Positions 14,762 to 23,469 of a stretch of DNA of 64,000 nt are shown piece after piece. The stretch is from Kyrpidia spormannii (lineage in GTDB: Bacteria; Bacillota; Bacilli; Kyrpidiales; Kyrpidiaceae): NCBI RefSeq assembly GCF_002804065.1, contig NZ_CP024955.1, positions 744,001 through 808,000 on the forward strand, given 5' to 3'. A program made the translations under genes and the position numbers. The notes under the pieces were generated by a model. It was not told the DNA's origin. It saw only the letters and a program-made list of their open reading frames with translations, and ran no database searches. Position 1 is the stretch's first letter. Every line of letters starts with the position of its first letter.

Positions 14762-15061
14762 TTACCACCCCAATCGGGCCCGGGCCGCCTCGGATAGGCG
14801 CTCCGGCGTCCAGGGAGGGTCCCAGACCACTTCCACCACTGCCTTTTCAACCCCCGGCACCCGGGCCACGGCCCGGCGTACGGCTTCGCTCAGACTGGTG
14901 TGAGCCGGACACCCCGGGGTCGTCATTGTCATGCGGATGAGGACGACCCCTTCTTCCGGCTCTTCGATTCCATAGATCAAACCGAGATCGACGACATTGA
15001 TCCCGATCTCCGGGTCCAACACCATCTTCAGAGCCTCCCGGAGGATATCCTGGTCAGTCAT
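14762..15061 (-). CDS. DUF59/MIP18-family metal-sulfur cluster assembly factor
   Basis: 99 aa of the FeS_assembly_P (DUF59) fold, related to SufT and PaaD, which help mature Fe-S proteins. The family blocks [18 protein letters not shown] and [11 protein letters not shown], with reactive Cys51, are intact. It overlaps the end of the upstream membrane-protein frame by eight bases and so is the last gene of a minus-strand operon with two DUF2249 genes. That context suggests it serves a dedicated Fe-S or haem-linked protein of this operon. Confidence 0.85.
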
Positions 15062-16470
15062 TGCCGCGCATCTCCCTTCCGATCTTGCCGAGGTCGACTA
15101 CCGTCAAAAGGTGAAAGCAAAAGACCCCCAGGGCCAGGGACACAACCGTTCCTCCCGCGGCCGCCGCCCAGGACTGCATCCAGGCGATGCCCGCGGTGAG
15201 TACGATCAGTCCCACGGCAAATGCCCAAAGCACCGGCCGGGGCTGCTCGGGGGAGATCAGATCGCCGATCAACGGAACCTTTTCCTTTCCCGCCCTTTGG
15301 CTGTACCGGCGGGTCCAGATCAAAAACGGAACAATTTTGTACGCGTAGCCCATAACGGCTAAAGTCATCCAGCCGAGGAGATACAAGGCGGCCACACCGG
15401 CCCATACCTTCGGGCTTCGAATGCCAGGGGCGAGAATGAACCCGGCGGATCCGATGAGTCCGGCGGCACCCGCGACAATCACGGCGCGAAGGGTAGGCTC
15501 TATCTTTTTGCGCAGCCGTTTAGCCAGGATCTCCCGCAGGTGGAACAGGTGCAAGGCAAAGGTCGCCAACCCCGCGATGCCCCCGAGTACCGTCACGGGG
15601 GCGACATGGGTCCAGGCGCCGAGGATGATCAGCCAGATGGCGGCATGGGCGAAGCCGAAGGTCCAATCCCGCAAGCGCACCGAAAAACCGTGGGAAAGGG
15701 TGAACATCGGCAGCAGCTTAAAACTGAAACCAATAATCAAGAATGTGAAGAAACCGCCGGCGGCGAGCACGATGTGGGTGACCAGAAGGGCCTCGATCCA
15801 GTTGCGCAGCCCGGGAACGCGAGGGGCGACGATGAGCAGCCATCCTACGGTCACCGCCAGGGGTAGGTACACGTGGGCCGAGCGCACAAACCGGAACATG
15901 GCGTCGCGATTTGGTGCCTTTTTGAGCGAGGCGCTGACAATTCCTGCGTAACCGCCAATGGAGATCGTCGCGGCCGCGCCGCTCAATAACAGTCCCGGAT
16001 TCCACCAGGCGGCCATCGATGCTGCGAGCCCTGCTGTGGACACCGCGTAGAGCCAAAAGTTCCACTTTGCCGCCTGTTCCGAAGCAATGGGGATCAAAAA
16101 GGCAACACTTTCCAATTGGTACACGGCCCCCATGACGAAGGACAGCAAGGAACCCAGGGTCAACAAATGGGTTAAGGCGATCCCCGCCCCCCCCGAACAG
16201 GCCGCCCTGGAATCCCCGAAGGGACTGAATGAGGAGATCCCCGGCAAACACCGCGAAACCGACCAACCCCAGGAGCAGGTACCGCATAGGTAGAGAAAAT
16301 GCTGGAGAGTAATCCGTCACTCCCGGGGGTAACATCCCGGGTGCAGATGCCCGTCCACCCGGCGGTCTGGACGCTGTAACCCGAACCTCTGCGGGATCCC
16401 CCCGGGCGCCTGGGGACGCCGCCCGACCCGCACTGGCTTCCGTCGGCCGTTCTGGTTTGGTCGTAGACAT
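15054..16470 (-). CDS. NnrS / oxidase-subunit-I-like multispanning membrane protein, interrupted by a one-base frameshift
   Basis: A Pro/Ser-rich start is followed by about twelve hydrophobic helices. The N-terminal 92 codons (ATG with SD GGAGGAGG) end in LRGFQGGLF, and the rest continues in the next frame with [27 protein letters not shown]. Dropping one G from a run of eight (plus strand C8 at 16187-16194) joins both frames into about 471 aa. Scattered helix-embedded His residues ([37 protein letters not shown]) recall NnrS and haem-copper oxidase I relatives tied to nitric oxide or low-oxygen metabolism. The exact family is uncertain. Whether the shift is a sequencing error, slippage site or mutation is open. 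Confidence 0.6.
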
Positions 16471-16553
16471 AATGGCACCTCCTCCACTGTTCCGATTTTG
16501 GCCCAGGCGGATGGAGTACGTCCCTTACAATCGCCGACTAACAGGCCCCTCCG

Positions 16554-17027
16554 TCACTGGGCTCGATAAATCTTGACCCGGACTGTTCCACTCTCTTCCT
16601 GCTCAATATCGTAGCGATATCCTCGTTCTTCCAGTTCAGGGAGCAGGAAGGCGGGCACTCGCTCATTCCAGATTTCGAGTCCCAGTTCACCGGCTCGGCA
16701 TTCGGAATGTTGCTCTAAAAAGTTCAGGGTCCGCATCATGGGCTCCGGCGGCTCCAGCCCGCGGTTGTCGAGGCGGAAGAAGGGCCGCTCCGTCTCCTCC
16801 CGATAGAACTGCACGATAAAATGCTCTTCGCTTTCTTGGACAACCGTACTCCGATACCCTTGCCGCCCCAGAACTCGGATTAAGGGGTCGGGACGAAAAG
16901 TCGCATGCAGTTGGAATACGTCCTCCGGTTCCAGGCAGCTAACCGTTTCCATAATGCGTTCAAAGGGCTCTTGCTTCGCCCGAAGCATGTCCCGGACGTC
17001 TAAATCGACAATCCTCCTCATCATCAA
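16554..17027 (-). CDS. Tandem DUF2249 protein
   Basis: 157 aa with two DUF2249-like halves: residues 1-72 (VDLDVRDML, EPFERIMETV, HATFRPDPLIRVLGRQGY) and 82-157 (LDNRGLEPPEPMMRTLNFLE, NERVPAFLLPELEERGY). DUF2249 domains are small TusA-like alpha/beta folds often found beside NO-, nitrite- or oxygen-responsive genes; no activity is proven. Second gene of the Fnr-linked operon. SD GGAGGA precedes the ATG cluster. Confidence 0.75.
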   Translation of the reverse strand: MMMRRIVDLDVRDMLRAKQEPFERIMETVSCLEPEDVFQLHATFRPDPLIRVLGRQGYRSTVVQESEEHFIVQFYREETERPFFRLDNRGLEPPEPMMRTLNFLEQHSECRAGELGLEIWNERVPAFLLPELEERGYRYDIEQEESGTVRVKIYRAQ

Positions 17028-17111
17028 TCCTCCTCCAGCCCCGAAAAACGGGCGGTCGGGCCCTCGACGAAAGCCGCGGGGGATTCCCGAACCGCTTTGA
17101 TCCGAGTTTTC

Positions 17112-17348
17112 TCACCGCTTCCCCAGTTGCACCCTCCACTCCGTCGGGCCTTCTTCAACGTAGTTCCAGTCAAACCGATTCGTTTGTTCTGCCGAGAATT
17201 GGTAATAGAGCGGCTTGGGATCGTGATCGTTAATCAGGAGCAGTTGTTCTCCCGGTGGCAGCGCCTCCCAGACGAAAAAGATCGTCCGGTGTTTGTCCGC
17301 AGGAGCGAACCGGCGCACATCGAGCACAGCGGCGTAACGGTTTTCCAT
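17112..17348 (-). CDS. Single-domain DUF2249 protein
   Basis: 78 aa. It begins with LDVRRFAPADKHRTIF and contains PPGEQLLLINDHDPKPLYYQF, the clearest DUF2249 signature (LLINDHDPKPLYYQ). It is the first gene of the minus-strand operon and lies just behind the TGTGA-N6-TCACA site and a matching -10. SD GGGAGGGAAGAGG is strong. Function unknown; small cytosolic partner of the following membrane protein is my inference. Confidence 0.8.
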   Translation of the reverse strand: MENRYAAVLDVRRFAPADKHRTIFFVWEALPPGEQLLLINDHDPKPLYYQFSAEQTNRFDWNYVEEGPTEWRVQLGKR

Positions 17349-17384
17349 CCTCTTCCCTCCCGAAAAAATCAGGCTGATGCCTTC

Positions 17385-17390
17385 ATTATT
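17385..17390 (-). promoter_or_regulatory. -10 element of the DUF2249 operon
   Basis: AATAAT on the minus strand, 33 bases centre-to-centre from the Fnr/Crp-type palindrome. This puts the palindrome at about -41.5, the class II activator position. Confidence 0.5.
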
Positions 17391-17412
17391 CAGGTTGGCG
17401 GGGTTGCACGTC

Positions 17413-17428
17413 TGTGAGGTGCATCACA
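17413..17428. promoter_or_regulatory. Perfect Fnr/Crp-family operator TGTGA-N6-TCACA
   Basis: TGTGAGGTGCATCACA has both half-sites intact. The Bacillus Fnr site is TGTGA-N6-TCACt/a. The site lies between the divergent DUF2249 operon and the GNAT gene, about 41 bases upstream of the operon's likely transcription start and about 80 bases from the GNAT -10, so it most likely activates the DUF2249 operon under low oxygen or nitrosative stress. Confidence 0.75.
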
Positions 17429-18562: not shown

Positions 18563-19018
18563 CCCTATTGCGCGCATGGGGATTCAAAGGTGATTGAGAG
18601 CCGCACGACCGCCGATGCCGTGCGCCGGCGGCGGGAATGTCTCGCCTGCGGCCGCCGGTTTACGACGTACGAGCGGGTGGAGGTCTCCCCCCTTCAGGTT
18701 ATCAAAAAAGACGGGATGCGGGAGACTTTTTCCAGGGAGAAACTCCGCCGCGGTCTGCTCAAAGCCTGTGAAAAGCGCCCCATCACCTCGGAAACCATCG
18801 ATGCTATGGTGGATCGGGTGGAACGGGATTTGCGCCAGGCGTTTGAGCGTGAGGTGACCACGAACCAGATCGGTGAGCGGGTCATGGCTGTCCTCCGGGA
18901 GGTCGACCAGGTGGCCTATGTCCGCTTTGCCAGTGTATACCGCGAATTTAAAGACGTGGAGACATTTCTTCGGGAAATTCTTCCGCTCCTGGACAAAGAG
19001 AGGGGTCAAGGGTTGTGA
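18554..19018 (+). CDS. nrdR: Transcriptional repressor NrdR
   Basis: 154 aa, full family length. Zinc ribbon ligands Cys3, Cys6, Cys29, Cys32 (MQCPYC, CLAC) are followed by an ATP-cone (about 46-136), the nucleotide sensor that lets NrdR repress ribonucleotide reductase genes when dATP is high. The downstream gene is its classical target, and its stop overlaps the nrdJ start region (TGATG). A NrdR box upstream implies autoregulation. Confidence 0.96.
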
Positions 19019-22000
19019 TGGAACAAAAGGATCGGACCATGCTGCCGTTCACCGAGGAGGACCGCCTCTCACCCACCGGGGAAAGGATTGTGGCAGATCG
19101 GTATTTGCTGAAAGACGCGAAAAAGGAGTCGCTGAAACCCGGCAGCCTTGTCGTCGCCGTAATTGACAAAAAGCGGGCCTACCACGAGCTGGGCAAGGTC
19201 GTCACCGTCGACCCCTCCCGGCGCACCGCTGTGGTGGAACTTCGGGATGGTCATCGCATTGAGCAGTCTTACGACGACCTCGACGTGCTAAAGGAGCAGT
19301 CACCCCGGGAAATGTGGCGGCGAATTGCCAAAGGGGCGGCGGCGGTGACCAAGGACCCGGGACTGTGGGAAGAGCGGTTTTATCAACTGCAGAGCGGATG
19401 GAAATATGTCCCCGGCGGGCGCATCAACGCCTCGATGGGCACGGGTTTCCAGACCACCAGTTACAACTGCTTTGTCATCCCCAGTGTCGGCCCCCGGCTG
19501 CGAGATTACGCGAAATCCTTTGGCCAGACCTTGGAGATCCAGGCCCGCTCCGGCGGGGTGGGCATGAACCTCTCCCGAATACCTCCCCGGGGCAGTCTCA
19601 TTCCCGTGTCAAAGGGTCCCCGGCGGTCTCACCTGCAATTGGTGCTGGACGTTTGGCACCCGGACCTCTTTGATTTTCTGCAAGAGTCCTATCCTCACAG
19701 CACCAAGGTGGTTCGGGTCAACCGGGCGTTCTTGCAAGCCGTAGAGGACCGGGCCGACTGGACCTTTGTGTTCCCGGATTCCTCTTTCGACGGATACGAC
19801 GACCTGTGGGACGGGGATTTGGCCAAATGGATGAAACAGGATCTGCCAGTCAAATATGGCACCACGGTACCCGCCCTGACGGTGTACGACAAAATCCTCG
19901 AATCCGGCGTGGTGATGACCGAAGAGGTGCTGGGTACTGTATTGGTACCCGGGGATAGCCGGGGTACCATCGCCGAGACCCTGGGGGATATGTGGGAGGA
20001 AATGGCCCGGGGCCGCCGGACGGCGGTGATCCTGTCTTCCCTGCGCCCTCGTTACACGTACGTGAAAGGGGTTAACGGGCGGAGTTCCGGGGCGTACTCC
20101 TGGGGGATCCTTTACGATAAGGGGAACCAGGTGTTCGGAGATGGTTTTGGCCCAGTGGGGGTCGGGGAAATCATGTCGGTGGGCTGCCAATTGACCCTCC
20201 AAGGAGGATCCCGGCGGGGGGCCCTGATGTTGATCCTGAACGACCGCCACGCCGATCTTCACCGGTTCATCCAAGCCAAGCAGGTCGAAGGGGTGATCAC
20301 CGGGGCCAATGTTTCGGTGGGTATCTCCGAAGAGTTCATGCAGGTGAAACAGCAGGGCGGTGATTGGAGTTTAGGATTTCCCCGGATGGAGGAGATGGAC
20401 GATTTCGATGGCGACTTCGGCCGCTGGGAGGCTACGGGTCGGGAATTGGTGGTCACCGAGACCCTTCCGGCGGAGGAGTTGTGGGAGGAAATCATCACCT
20501 CCGCGTGGAAATCCGCCGAACCCGGCGTGGTTTTCCTCGGGCGCTACAACGCCATGAGCAATAGTTGGTATTATAACCCAATCATCGCCACAAACCCTTG
20601 TTTCCACCCGGATACTCGGGTCGCGACGGAATTTGGCTATCTGCGCCTCGAGGACCTCTATCATCGGGTCGGTTCGGCGCCGTTTAAGGTCCTGACGGAT
20701 GACCGCGTTCATCGCCGGGTCGAAGTGGTCAACGGTCGATCCTACGCGGTGCCCGGGGTGTCGCCACGACCGGCTGTAGTCTTTCCCACGGGACGAAAAC
20801 AGACGGTGAAGGTGGCGCTGAAAAATGGCATGGAGTTGAAAGTGACGCCGGATCACCGGCTCCTTACATCGGATGGGTGGAAAGAAGCGGGAGAACTGCA
20901 GCCCGGCGACTTGGTTCTCATCCAGTCCGGGGAGGGGTTGTTCCCGGAAAAGGATGGCCTAGGACGGGATTGGGGTTGGTTTTTGGGATGGTTGGTCGGC
21001 GATGGTTGGATCTCAAAGCGCGGAGATGTCGGGATGGTCTTTGGTCGCGAAGACGCGGAAGTCATTCCGGAGATGATCAGGATCGGCAAGGAGCTATCCG
21101 GGGCGGAAGCCAAGGTATTCGAAAGGGAGAATGGGGTTTTTCAAGTTTTCTGGTGGAGAAAGGAATTTCGCGACCGGCTCCTGTCTCTAGGGGTAAAACA
21201 GGTCAGGGCCGAGGACAAGAGGGTGCCCGCGGCGGTGTTTGAGGCCTCGAGGGAAACGGTGAGAGCCTTTCTTCAGGCTCTTTTCAGTTCGGATGGCGCG
21301 GTTTATGAAAATGACGAACATCACCGCACCGTGCGAATGACCTCGGCTTCAAAAAGCTTACTTCAAGACGTGCAACTTTTGCTATTGAATTTCGGGATAC
21401 ATGGAAAGATATATGATCGACCCAAAAGGAACCAGGCGAAATTCCAGTACCAGACGATTTCCGGTGAATCCCGGGTGTACGAGAGTAAGGGTTTCTACGA
21501 ACTGATTCTGTCTGGCAACAATGTGGCGGTGTTTGCCGAGAAGATCGGGTTTGCACTCGTGACCCGAAAACAGGAGGCTCTCCAGCGAATCAGTCGGCCT
21601 TCTCGAAAACGGGAAAAATTTTATAGCGCCGTAGCGGGGGTGGAGCCAGGGGAGGAAGTGACGGTCTACGACGTCAGTGAACCGGAAACCCACTCCCTGG
21701 TGGCTTCGGGCATCGTCGCCCACAACTGCGGGGAACAGGGGCTGCCGGCCTTTGGGATTTGTAACCTCGGCGCCGTGGTGCTGAGCAAATTCACCACCGG
21801 CTTTGAGGACAGCGGGGTGGAGGCGACCTTTTCGGATCCCACCAAAGAAGAGTACATCCGCGGGTGGCTCCGCAAACATTTTGACGACGAGCGGGCGGAG
21901 TTTTTCCTCCACCACATCCGCTGGGAGGCCCTGGAGGAGACGGTCCGCACCGGTGTGCGCTTTCAAGATGCGGTGATCGATGCCACGTACTATCCGTTTG

Positions 22001-23469
22001 AGGAAAACCGGGAAAACCAACTGGGCGAGCGGCGGGTGGGCCTCGGCATCATGGGGCTGCACGATCTGCTGATCCACTGCGGCGTGCGCTATGGCAGCGA
22101 GGAGTCCACCCGGCTGATCGATGTGCTGATCGGGATGATGGCGGAATGGTCCTACCTGGAGTCGGTGGAACTCGCCAAGGAGAACGGTCCCTTCCCCCGC
22201 TTCGACGCCGAGAAGTTCCTGCAGTCCGGGTACATGCGGCACATGGCCGCGGAGAGGCCGCACGTCGTGGAAGCCATTCGCAAATATGGCGTGCGCAACG
22301 TGACCACCATGACCATCGCGCCCACGGGGACCACCGGCACGATGGTGGGGTGTTCCACCGGGTGCGAGCCGTACTATGCCTGGTCGTATTTTCGCAATTC
22401 CCGTCTGGGGATGTTTGAGGAGAACGCCCAGATTGTCGATGACTATCTCGCCCTTCACCCCGGCGTGGACCGGGAGCACCTCCCGGATTACTTTGTCACG
22501 GCCATGGAGTTGACCCCCGAGGAGCACGTGCGGGTGCAGGCGGCATTGCAAAAGTGGATCGACTCCAGCATCTCGAAGACCTGCAACGCGCCGGAATCCT
22601 ATACCGTCGAGGATACGAAGCAATTGTACGACCTGGCGTACGATCTCGGGTGCAAGGGTGTGACCATCTACCGGGACGGTTCCCGCTCGGAACAGGTCTT
22701 GGCCCTGAGCGAGGACAGGCTCAAGAAAGAGGGGGCGGGTGCCGGGGAAGGGGCCCAGACCGGGACGGCGGCGGTGGAAGCGGGTGCCGCGGCGCCTCAG
22801 GCGGCGGTCGCGGCGGAGTCGCCGGGGACGGGCCGGCCGAACACGACAAAATATGTCAAACGCAAGCGCCCGGATGTGCTGTACGGGGCGACGTACAAGA
22901 AGGAAACGCCCCTCGGCACTGCGTACATCACCATCAACGACGACCCGGAAGACCACCTGGCCCGGGAGATCTTCGTGAACATCGGGAAAGCGGGCAGCGA
23001 CGTGTACGCGGCGAACGAAGCTTTGGGCCGGGCGATCACCCTGTACCTCATGGACTCGCAAAATCCGGATAAAGAAGCGGTGTTGGTGCGCCACTTCTCG
23101 GGGATCGGAGGATATAGCGCCGTGGGGTTCGGGGAGCGACGGATCACCAGCGTCCCCGATGCCATCGCCAAATCCCTGATCGAGCACTCGGAAACTTTTC
23201 CCCTCCGCCATGGCGGGGTCTACCATGCGGCCGCATCCCAGGGCGCTCCTGACACCGGCGGGGGTGCAGACGGCAAGGACGCTTCCGGAGATGGACATGG
23301 CCGCGGAACAGGCGGTGGGCACGGAGATCATGGCCACGGAAACGGCAACGGGCGTTCCTTGCGGGGTTTCAACATTGGCAAAGACCTGTGTCCGAACTGT
23401 CACCGCATGTCTTTGGTGCGTCAGGGCGGGTGTTTTGAATGTGAAGCTTGCGGGTACAGCAAGTGCTGA
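19018..23469 (+). CDS. nrdJ: Adenosylcobalamin-dependent (class II) ribonucleoside-diphosphate reductase precursor with intein
   Basis: Makes deoxyribonucleotides with vitamin B12 as radical source. The 1483-aa precursor has an N-terminal domain, the reductase barrel with Cys151 (TSYNCF), then an intein at residues 528-903, then CGEQGLPAFGIC holding the thiyl Cys904 and redox partner Cys915, then MTIAPTGTTGTMVG and SKTCNAPESYT. A Gly/Ala-rich linker, a TSCPD domain (about 1235-1365), a His/Gly-rich stretch and a C-terminal zinc ribbon with terminal cysteines (CPNC, CEACGYSKC) follow. After splicing the enzyme has 1107 aa. A GTG one codon upstream is an alternative start. It is coupled to nrdR. 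Confidence 0.94.
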   Translation: MEQKDRTMLPFTEEDRLSPTGERIVADRYLLKDAKKESLKPGSLVVAVIDKKRAYHELGKVVTVDPSRRTAVVELRDGHRIEQSYDDLDVLKEQSPREMWRRIAKGAAAVTKDPGLWEERFYQLQSGWKYVPGGRINASMGTGFQTTSYNCFVIPSVGPRLRDYAKSFGQTLEIQARSGGVGMNLSRIPPRGSLIPVSKGPRRSHLQLVLDVWHPDLFDFLQESYPHSTKVVRVNRAFLQAVEDRADWTFVFPDSSFDGYDDLWDGDLAKWMKQDLPVKYGTTVPALTVYDKILESGVVMTEEVLGTVLVPGDSRGTIAETLGDMWEEMARGRRTAVILSSLRPRYTYVKGVNGRSSGAYSWGILYDKGNQVFGDGFGPVGVGEIMSVGCQLTLQGGSRRGALMLILNDRHADLHRFIQAKQVEGVITGANVSVGISEEFMQVKQQGGDWSLGFPRMEEMDDFDGDFGRWEATGRELVVTETLPAEELWEEIITSAWKSAEPGVVFLGRYNAMSNSWYYNPIIATNPCFHPDTRVATEFGYLRLEDLYHRVGSAPFKVLTDDRVHRRVEVVNGRSYAVPGVSPRPAVVFPTGRKQTVKVALKNGMELKVTPDHRLLTSDGWKEAGELQPGDLVLIQSGEGLFPEKDGLGRDWGWFLGWLVGDGWISKRGDVGMVFGREDAEVIPEMIRIGKELSGAEAKVFERENGVFQVFWWRKEFRDRLLSLGVKQVRAEDKRVPAAVFEASRETVRAFLQALFSSDGAVYENDEHHRTVRMTSASKSLLQDVQLLLLNFGIHGKIYDRPKRNQAKFQYQTISGESRVYESKGFYELILSGNNVAVFAEKIGFALVTRKQEALQRISRPSRKREKFYSAVAGVEPGEEVTVYDVSEPETHSLVASGIVAHNCGEQGLPAFGICNLGAVVLSKFTTGFEDSGVEATFSDPTKEEYIRGWLRKHFDDERAEFFLHHIRWEALEETVRTGVRFQDAVIDATYYPFEENRENQLGERRVGLGIMGLHDLLIHCGVRYGSEESTRLIDVLIGMMAEWSYLESVELAKENGPFPRFDAEKFLQSGYMRHMAAERPHVVEAIRKYGVRNVTTMTIAPTGTTGTMVGCSTGCEPYYAWSYFRNSRLGMFEENAQIVDDYLALHPGVDREHLPDYFVTAMELTPEEHVRVQAALQKWIDSSISKTCNAPESYTVEDTKQLYDLAYDLGCKGVTIYRDGSRSEQVLALSEDRLKKEGAGAGEGAQTGTAAVEAGAAAPQAAVAAESPGTGRPNTTKYVKRKRPDVLYGATYKKETPLGTAYITINDDPEDHLAREIFVNIGKAGSDVYAANEALGRAITLYLMDSQNPDKEAVLVRHFSGIGGYSAVGFGERRITSVPDAIAKSLIEHSETFPLRHGGVYHAAASQGAPDTGGGADGKDASGDGHGRGTGGGHGDHGHGNGNGRSLRGFNIGKDLCPNCHRMSLVRQGGCFECEACGYSKC
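20599..21726 (+). mobile_element. Intein with LAGLIDADG homing endonuclease inside nrdJ
   Basis: 376 residues, in frame. It starts with Cys (CFHPDTRVAT, block A), has block B TPDHRLLTSDGW with the TxxH motif, two LAGLIDADG motifs (LGWLVGDGWI and LQALFSSDGAV) and ends with block F/G VTVYDVSEPETHSL...GIVAHN, followed by Cys of the C-extein. All splice residues are therefore present. It sits exactly before the catalytic Cys in NPCGEQ, a known insertion point for RIR1-type inteins. Its endonuclease part is visibly less GC-rich than the flanking exteins, in line with horizontal entry. Confidence 0.95.

Follow-up and report, generated by a model that had tools for sequence, protein, structure and literature searches.

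The window analysed here, a 64,000-nucleotide stretch of the Kyrpidia sp. EA-1 genome, contains an operon for two DUF2249 proteins, a twelve-helix membrane protein and a DUF59 protein. After comparison with its relatives, we give about even chances to the view that the four genes form a nitric oxide (NO) or low-oxygen response module, built around a degenerate, oxidase-like protein that probably holds a single haem. Since the genes occur together across many Bacillus-like bacteria, mostly under a switch of one type and frequently next to NirK, the nitrite reductase that makes NO, they probably protect cells from this gas.

The operon of strain EA-1

Kyrpidia sp. EA-1 is a thermophilic aerobic hydrogen oxidiser whose PacBio genome, a single contig of 3,352,175 bases, was polished with Illumina reads to a reported QV60. 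All parts of the operon lie on the minus strand and follow the promoter box in the order DUF2249, tandem DUF2249, membrane gene and DUF59. The features are listed below in window coordinates.

17413-17428, no strand assigned: Crp/Fnr-type palindrome TGTGA-N6-TCACA, centre at about -42 (perfect-site search; enriched upstream of the operon in relatives)
17385-17390, minus: putative -10 hexamer (AATAAT) at a distance of 30 nt from the centre of the box (from the sequence)
17112-17348, minus: single DUF2249 protein of 78 aa, class A with KHxxIF and NDHDP motifs (PF10006, 91.3 bits against a cut-off of 29.5)
16554-17027, minus: tandem DUF2249 protein of 157 aa, a class C half and a class B half (PF10006, 93.4 bits against a cut-off of 29.5, in two stretches)
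About 15054-16470, minus: predicted 12-helix membrane protein of the haem-copper oxidase (HCO) superfamily, frameshifted in EA-1 (family alignment and AlphaFold2 model)
16187-16194, minus: G8 run whose single extra base breaks the membrane gene in two (from alignment with G001, a genome of the same genus)
14762-15061, minus: DUF59 / FeS_assembly_P protein, SufT/PaaD-like (PF01883, 65.3 bits against a cut-off of 23.5)

Pfam scores and coordinates agree on the four-gene operon behind a TGTGA-N6-TCACA site that a sequence-only reading of the window had described. The start of the DUF59 gene overlaps the end of the membrane gene, and its product scores below the cut-off of the NCBIfam SUF-associated equivalog (TIGR02945, 110.3 against 143.4 bits). 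A whole-genome profile search located all three DUF2249 domains of EA-1 in the operon. The gene after the operon is a convergent SpoVR gene. Elsewhere in the window, at 19015-23469 on the plus strand, a ribonucleotide reductase large chain carries an in-frame LAGLIDADG intein at about residues 528-904.

The gene set in other Bacilli

A scan of public genomes yielded 459 stretches encoding a relative, and the best 80 of these were kept and annotated by profiles grown from the window's own domains. In 66 of these 80 loci (best 80 of 459), which come from other Bacilli, the DUF2249, membrane and DUF59 genes were contiguous on one strand, and the membrane gene was flanked immediately upstream by DUF2249 and immediately downstream by DUF59. 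The gene order is conserved, and the set does co-occur in other genomes. The denitrifier Schinkia azotoformans has the set in locus L081. The membrane family was present in 66 of 300 sampled genomes of the class. Some loci contain RIC/ScdA genes, and radical SAM proteins related to haem b or haem d1 synthesis were found in 34. Near the operon in 34 loci is a TIGR04053 radical SAM/SPASM protein related to the heme b synthase AhbD (L121:4549-5694 and equivalents; in EA-1, at L130:1290-2525 beside the regulator gene described below). A family of about 124 aa with no Pfam or NCBIfam match lies near the operon in nine loci (e.g., L039:8222-8596).

Three classes of DUF2249 domain recur, namely A (KHxxIF, NDHDP), C (LDVRxML) and B (LDNRGLEPPxPM). 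The two halves joined in the tandem protein, C and B, are separate genes in Bacillaceae, in which a class-A DUF2249 gene often lies nearby on the opposite strand. AlphaFold2 predicted the structure of the tandem protein with a pLDDT of 94.4. Structure comparison assigned the second (B) half to the TusA fold, with Z scores of 10.8 for the SirA-like 3hz7, 10.5 for YeeD and 9.6 for TusA, and the same half gave a weak TusA profile match. The catalytic Cys of the TusA motif CPxP is replaced by an invariant Pro (PPxP) in 18 out of 18 aligned tandem proteins, and Pro occupies this position in over 80 percent of 79 class-B domains. This replacement excludes TusA-type persulfide chemistry for the tandem protein. 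Sulfur transfer of this type was therefore rejected, and the earlier suggestion of DUF2249 proteins as sulfur carriers loses its TusA mechanism there.

An oxidase fold without a binuclear centre

The membrane protein sequence by itself had no match in Pfam, NCBIfam or PDB, and its relation to COX1 and CcoN was reached through the family alignment only. In a Pfam scan to an E-value of 5, eight out of 16 family members matched COX1 (best E-value 1.6e-7) and none matched NnrS. The family profile matched CcoN of cbb3 oxidase. In this match the first four-helix unit corresponds to helices 9-12, and one invariant His falls opposite the second His in the His-Val-His motif of CcoN. The AlphaFold2 model of the orthologue from Kyrpidia Bu79 (pLDDT 91, pTM 0.88) consists of twelve long helices, and its structural matches were CcoN (Z 35.7) and the NO reductases (cNOR) of Roseobacter (Z 34.7) and Pseudomonas (Z 33.0). 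As judged from alignment and model, the membrane protein is a homologue of the HCO superfamily that keeps the 12-helix, three-times-four fold. The sequence-only reading had called the protein NnrS-like and had named NnrS and haem-copper oxidase subunit I for a profile search; the relatives found were COX1, CcoN and NorB, and NnrS was rejected by sequence.

The only His residues invariant in 55 out of 55 family sequences are H84 in helix 2, H215 in helix 6 and H243 after helix 6, to which the earlier description of a His-rich protein has to be cut down. K234, K361 and R301 are likewise invariant in all 55. The family does not have the six His ligands of HCO enzymes, as the helix-VII HisHis and the helix-X His-x-His are missing from the 55 sequences; the equivalent helix-10 position is Y346 in 53 of them, and H243 lies in a loop outside the classical sites. 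The missing helix-VII and helix-X motifs rule out that the protein, as aligned and modelled, is an ordinary oxidase or NO reductase. With the CuB His pairs and the helix-X haem ligands gone, it is likely to bind at most one haem.

Promoter architecture and the candidate regulator

The palindrome TGTGAGGTGCATCACA at 17413-17428 is the only perfect TGTGA-N6-TCACA site in the window and one of two in the 3.35-Mb EA-1 genome. The other (L131:5465-5480, genome 187,464) lies upstream of a ywiC-like gene (PF14256), a candidate second member of the regulon. The box of the operon is identical in one congener, and in another the half sites are kept and the core has diverged. Perfect boxes were present in 25 out of 113 operon upstream regions versus 55 out of 3526 background segments, and boxes with up to one mismatch in 62 out of 113 versus 213 out of 3526. 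A hexamer was called as -10 when it agreed with TATAAT in at least 5 of its 6 positions. Of 47 non-redundant promoters, 30 have such a hexamer at a distance of exactly 29 nt from the centre of the box, and no other offset was seen in more than four. This spacing, read from the promoter sequences, is the class-II Crp/Fnr position, with the box centre at -41.5. The putative EA-1 promoter comes within 1 nt of it, as AATAAT at 17390-17385 (+30) puts the centre at about -42; the position near -41.5 first proposed for the window is thus borne out by its relatives.

In Bacillaceae, 23 out of 85 regions have a Fur-like box (four mismatches at most) over the -10, versus 33 out of 5504 background segments including those 23. 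This overlap suggests joint control by iron and by NO or oxygen in that family. The loci concerned fall within L075-L124, where many Bacillaceae have such a box upstream of the operon. The EA-1 operon promoter has no Fur-like box.

A Crp/Fnr-family gene was found in 59 loci, in many of them directly upstream of the operon. The copies adjoining the operon mostly carry 0-2 Cys, and some loci have a second copy further off with three C-terminal Cys, the pattern of B. subtilis Fnr. EA-1 has one homologue, at genome position 2,556,455; no other protein encoded in the genome has a full Crp-type HTH, and its only Cys are those at positions 2 and 42. This sole candidate is not a classical Fnr, since it lacks a cysteine cluster for Fe-S binding, and the operon can no longer be called Fnr-linked in the Fe-S sense. 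Given the Cys-poor context, the regulator is more likely to be a Dnr/NnrR-like sensor, with NO as its presumed signal, than an Fe-S Fnr.

The EA-1 regulator gene adjoins a second membrane-protein homologue (L130:3785-7254, genome about 2,552,800-2,556,250), a hemerythrin gene and two radical SAM genes, one TIGR04053 and the other NirJ1-like but below the cut-off, related to haem b and haem d1 enzymes. This neighbourhood has a one-mismatch box of its own. Between the presumed promoter box and the second homologue lies a reverse-transcriptase-like ORF (L130:5326-6747), by eye of the group II intron type.

Association with NirK

Among the 300 genomes of the class, the membrane gene occurred in 30 out of 34 genomes with NirK versus 36 out of 266 others (odds ratio 48; p 8e-19, computed over genomes with kinship ignored). 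Conversely, 36 of the 66 genomes with the membrane gene have no NirK match. The association was also seen at the level of genera (19 out of 23 versus 23 out of 95, p 3e-7, counted by hand from the tables). Because NirK proteins of Bacilli all score below the curated cut-off, the threshold, 140 bits at near full length, was set by eye at a score gap. Nine genomes have NirK no more than 2 kb from a gene of the membrane family, and in L038 and L071 it comes just downstream of DUF59. The association with NarG was much weaker (odds ratio 3.4 in the same 300 genomes). Genes for HCOs, both Tyr-containing and Tyr-less, are found as neighbours in about 34 loci; nine loci encode an oxidase-like subunit I that has GHTLVN or GHIFAN, without the active-site Tyr, as NO reductases would be expected to have. 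The conserved operon, the class-II promoter and the association with NirK and Tyr-less HCOs together fit a response to low oxygen or NO, as the sequence-only reading had supposed.

A frameshift in the EA-1 membrane gene

A multispanning membrane gene is indeed present in EA-1, but it is not the single intact gene that had been assumed, because a one-base frameshift in the G8 run had been overlooked. The N-terminal part extends from 16470 to this run and the remainder continues in another frame, whereas in both congeners the gene is one open frame, of 471 and 454 residues. According to the alignment, EA-1 has one extra base within 16187-16194, where G001 has GGAGCGG; this is the only C/G run of at least 7 between 14701 and 17500. 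Between EA-1 and G001, the C-terminal part of the gene has a dN/dS of 0.15, compared with 0.11 for SpoVR. To judge from this ratio, purifying selection acted on the EA-1 gene until a short time ago, and the lesion therefore arose recently, varies by phase or stems from the assembly. Accordingly, three explanations come into question for the module in EA-1: that this strain has it switched off, that it is subject to phase variation, or that the G8 run was read wrongly. Neither frameshifts nor DUF genes turned up in a published mutagenesis study of EA-1.

Neither NarG nor full-length NirK was found over noise in EA-1, and NarG is present in G001. The tyrosine of GHPxVY is present in all four Pfam-level HCOs of EA-1, and the search thus revealed no haem-copper NO reductase. 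A B-type oxidase 17 kb upstream was considered as an NO reductase and rejected, since its GHPLVY motif reads as that of an O2 reductase.

For EA-1 only, the operon could be a decaying remnant, in which the membrane gene was frameshifted after nitrate respiration had disappeared and is now without function in this strain. We give this clearly less than even chances, and it is compatible with every reading of the family. It would account for a frameshift in a gene that is intact in both congeners, in a genome polished to the quality given above. The absence of NirK, NarG and a Tyr-less oxidase from EA-1, with NarG kept in G001, is consistent with decay but is not proof of it. On the other hand, there is a single lesion only, the rest of the gene is under purifying selection, the box and promoter are intact, and the G8 run could be an artefact of sequencing or of phase variation. 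Decay in EA-1 also leaves the family elsewhere unexplained.

Possible function of the gene set

We propose that a Cys-poor activator of the Crp/Fnr family, of the Dnr/NnrR type, would switch the operon on from the class-II site at about -41.5; comparison gives the promoter architecture, and NO would be the activating signal. The membrane protein probably holds at most one haem, through the His of helix II and/or helix VI. That haem may serve to bind NO, or the protein may hand on haem or iron at the membrane. Its partners in the cytoplasm would be the DUF59 protein and the DUF2249 proteins of TusA fold, which may keep haem and Fe-S proteins supplied or repaired during NO production. The absence of NarG, full-length NirK and a haem-copper NO reductase from EA-1, together with its broken membrane gene, counts against an NO module, as do the genomes with the membrane gene but no NirK match, which are more than half, and the place of H243 away from the classical sites.

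A rather unlikely alternative is a role in maturation, in which the membrane protein shuttles haem or copper and, with the DUF2249 and DUF59 proteins, assembles nearby NO reductases, B-type oxidases or NirK. The adjacency of NirK would fit such a role, as would the HCO genes around about 34 loci, an association counted within the loci only. The same is true of the Fur boxes over the -10 in Bacillaceae and of the haem b- and d1-related radical SAM proteins, which in EA-1 stand beside the second membrane homologue. Against this, the DUF2249 proteins showed no motif typical of known haem or copper chaperones. We hold as doubtful a more specific version of the NO response, an NO-triggered hub in which the oxidase-fold protein, deprived of its catalytic metals, the Cys-less TusA-fold proteins and DUF59 would capture or recycle haem or iron displaced by NO, wired in Bacillaceae to NO or low oxygen and to iron.

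It is improbable that the DUF2249 and membrane proteins act, in the manner of DrpA and DrpB of Thermus, as sensors of nitrate, nitrite or NO that adjust the Crp/Fnr regulator. The regulator gene adjoins the operon in many loci, DrpA and the C-terminus of DrpB are DUF2249, and in drp mutants the dnr and nar promoters are no longer controlled by nitrate (PMC6282519). However, no signalling domain and, in the tandem protein, no DUF1858 was found, and the link to NirK is stronger than that to NarG; moreover, DUF59 and the 12-helix protein, nearly always present here, are missing from DrpAB. Finally, a new active redox enzyme, e.g., for quinol-linked consumption of NO or nitrite with DUF2249 proteins as electron or substrate carriers, would suit the full HCO fold with its three invariant His, Lys234, Lys361 and Arg301, but is very improbable without CuB ligands, a second haem site, a redox-active Cys at the TusA position of the tandem protein, or a partner cytochrome or cupredoxin in the conserved set of the surveyed loci.

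If the module does serve to defend cells against NO or to repair cofactors, a part of denitrification, and of N2O release, by Gram-positive soil bacteria has been overlooked. A gene set without an assigned function occurs in about a fifth of the sampled genomes of the class, including nearly all of those with NirK. DUF2249, long noted around denitrification, thereby gains a constant partner in the membrane, a regulator that can be tested and a rule for the promoter. Judged by the literature searched, the four-gene set with its wide distribution, the -41.5 spacing, the overlap with Fur boxes and the preference for NirK appear to be new, and so do the low Cys content of the regulator, the change from Cys to Pro and the lesion in EA-1.

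Comparison with known systems

The sequence-only reading knew of no described complex of this make-up. This still applies to the four-gene architecture, which is apparently undescribed, but links of DUF2249 to NO reductase, denitrification and the HCO superfamily have been published. We take COG4309 to be DUF2249. COG4309 has been tied to nor operons under NnrR/NsrR (Rodionov et al. 2005, PMC1274295). In rhizobia and beta-proteobacteria it resembles the present case as a small gene under NnrR/NsrR control beside NO reductase, and differs in being a single gene with norB, outside a conserved four-gene set. In Thermus thermophilus, the DUF2249 proteins DrpA and DrpB are needed for nitrate control (PMC6282519). 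They share with the EA-1 operon the combination of single and double DUF2249 proteins, the context of nitrate respiration and anaerobic transcriptional control, whereas DrpB has a DUF1858 domain and the drp operon has no membrane HCO homologue or DUF59. In Haloferax mediterranei, all four DUF2249 proteins rise in denitrification (PMC11218638), and the same paper cites Pei et al. 2014 for a link of DUF2249 to the HCO superfamily.

The second half of the tandem protein has the fold of TusA, SirA and YeeD (Z 9.6-10.8), with the difference of the invariant Pro in place of the catalytic Cys. Among membrane proteins, three-unit 'HCO homology' proteins including NnrS were reportedly described by Pei and colleagues in 2014. 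The present family differs from NnrS in matching no NnrS profile; the three-unit proteins resemble it in their 12 helices, few conserved His and denitrification or NO context and, according to PMC11218638, in their association with DUF2249. CcoN and NorB (Pfam COX1), at 10-15 percent identity, differ in having CuB ligands and helix-X haem ligands, which the membrane protein lacks, leaving it with no binuclear centre. Like them, it has 12 helices in a three-times-four arrangement and matches the fold over its full length (Z 33-36), and its helix-II-type His is the one that aligns with CcoN.
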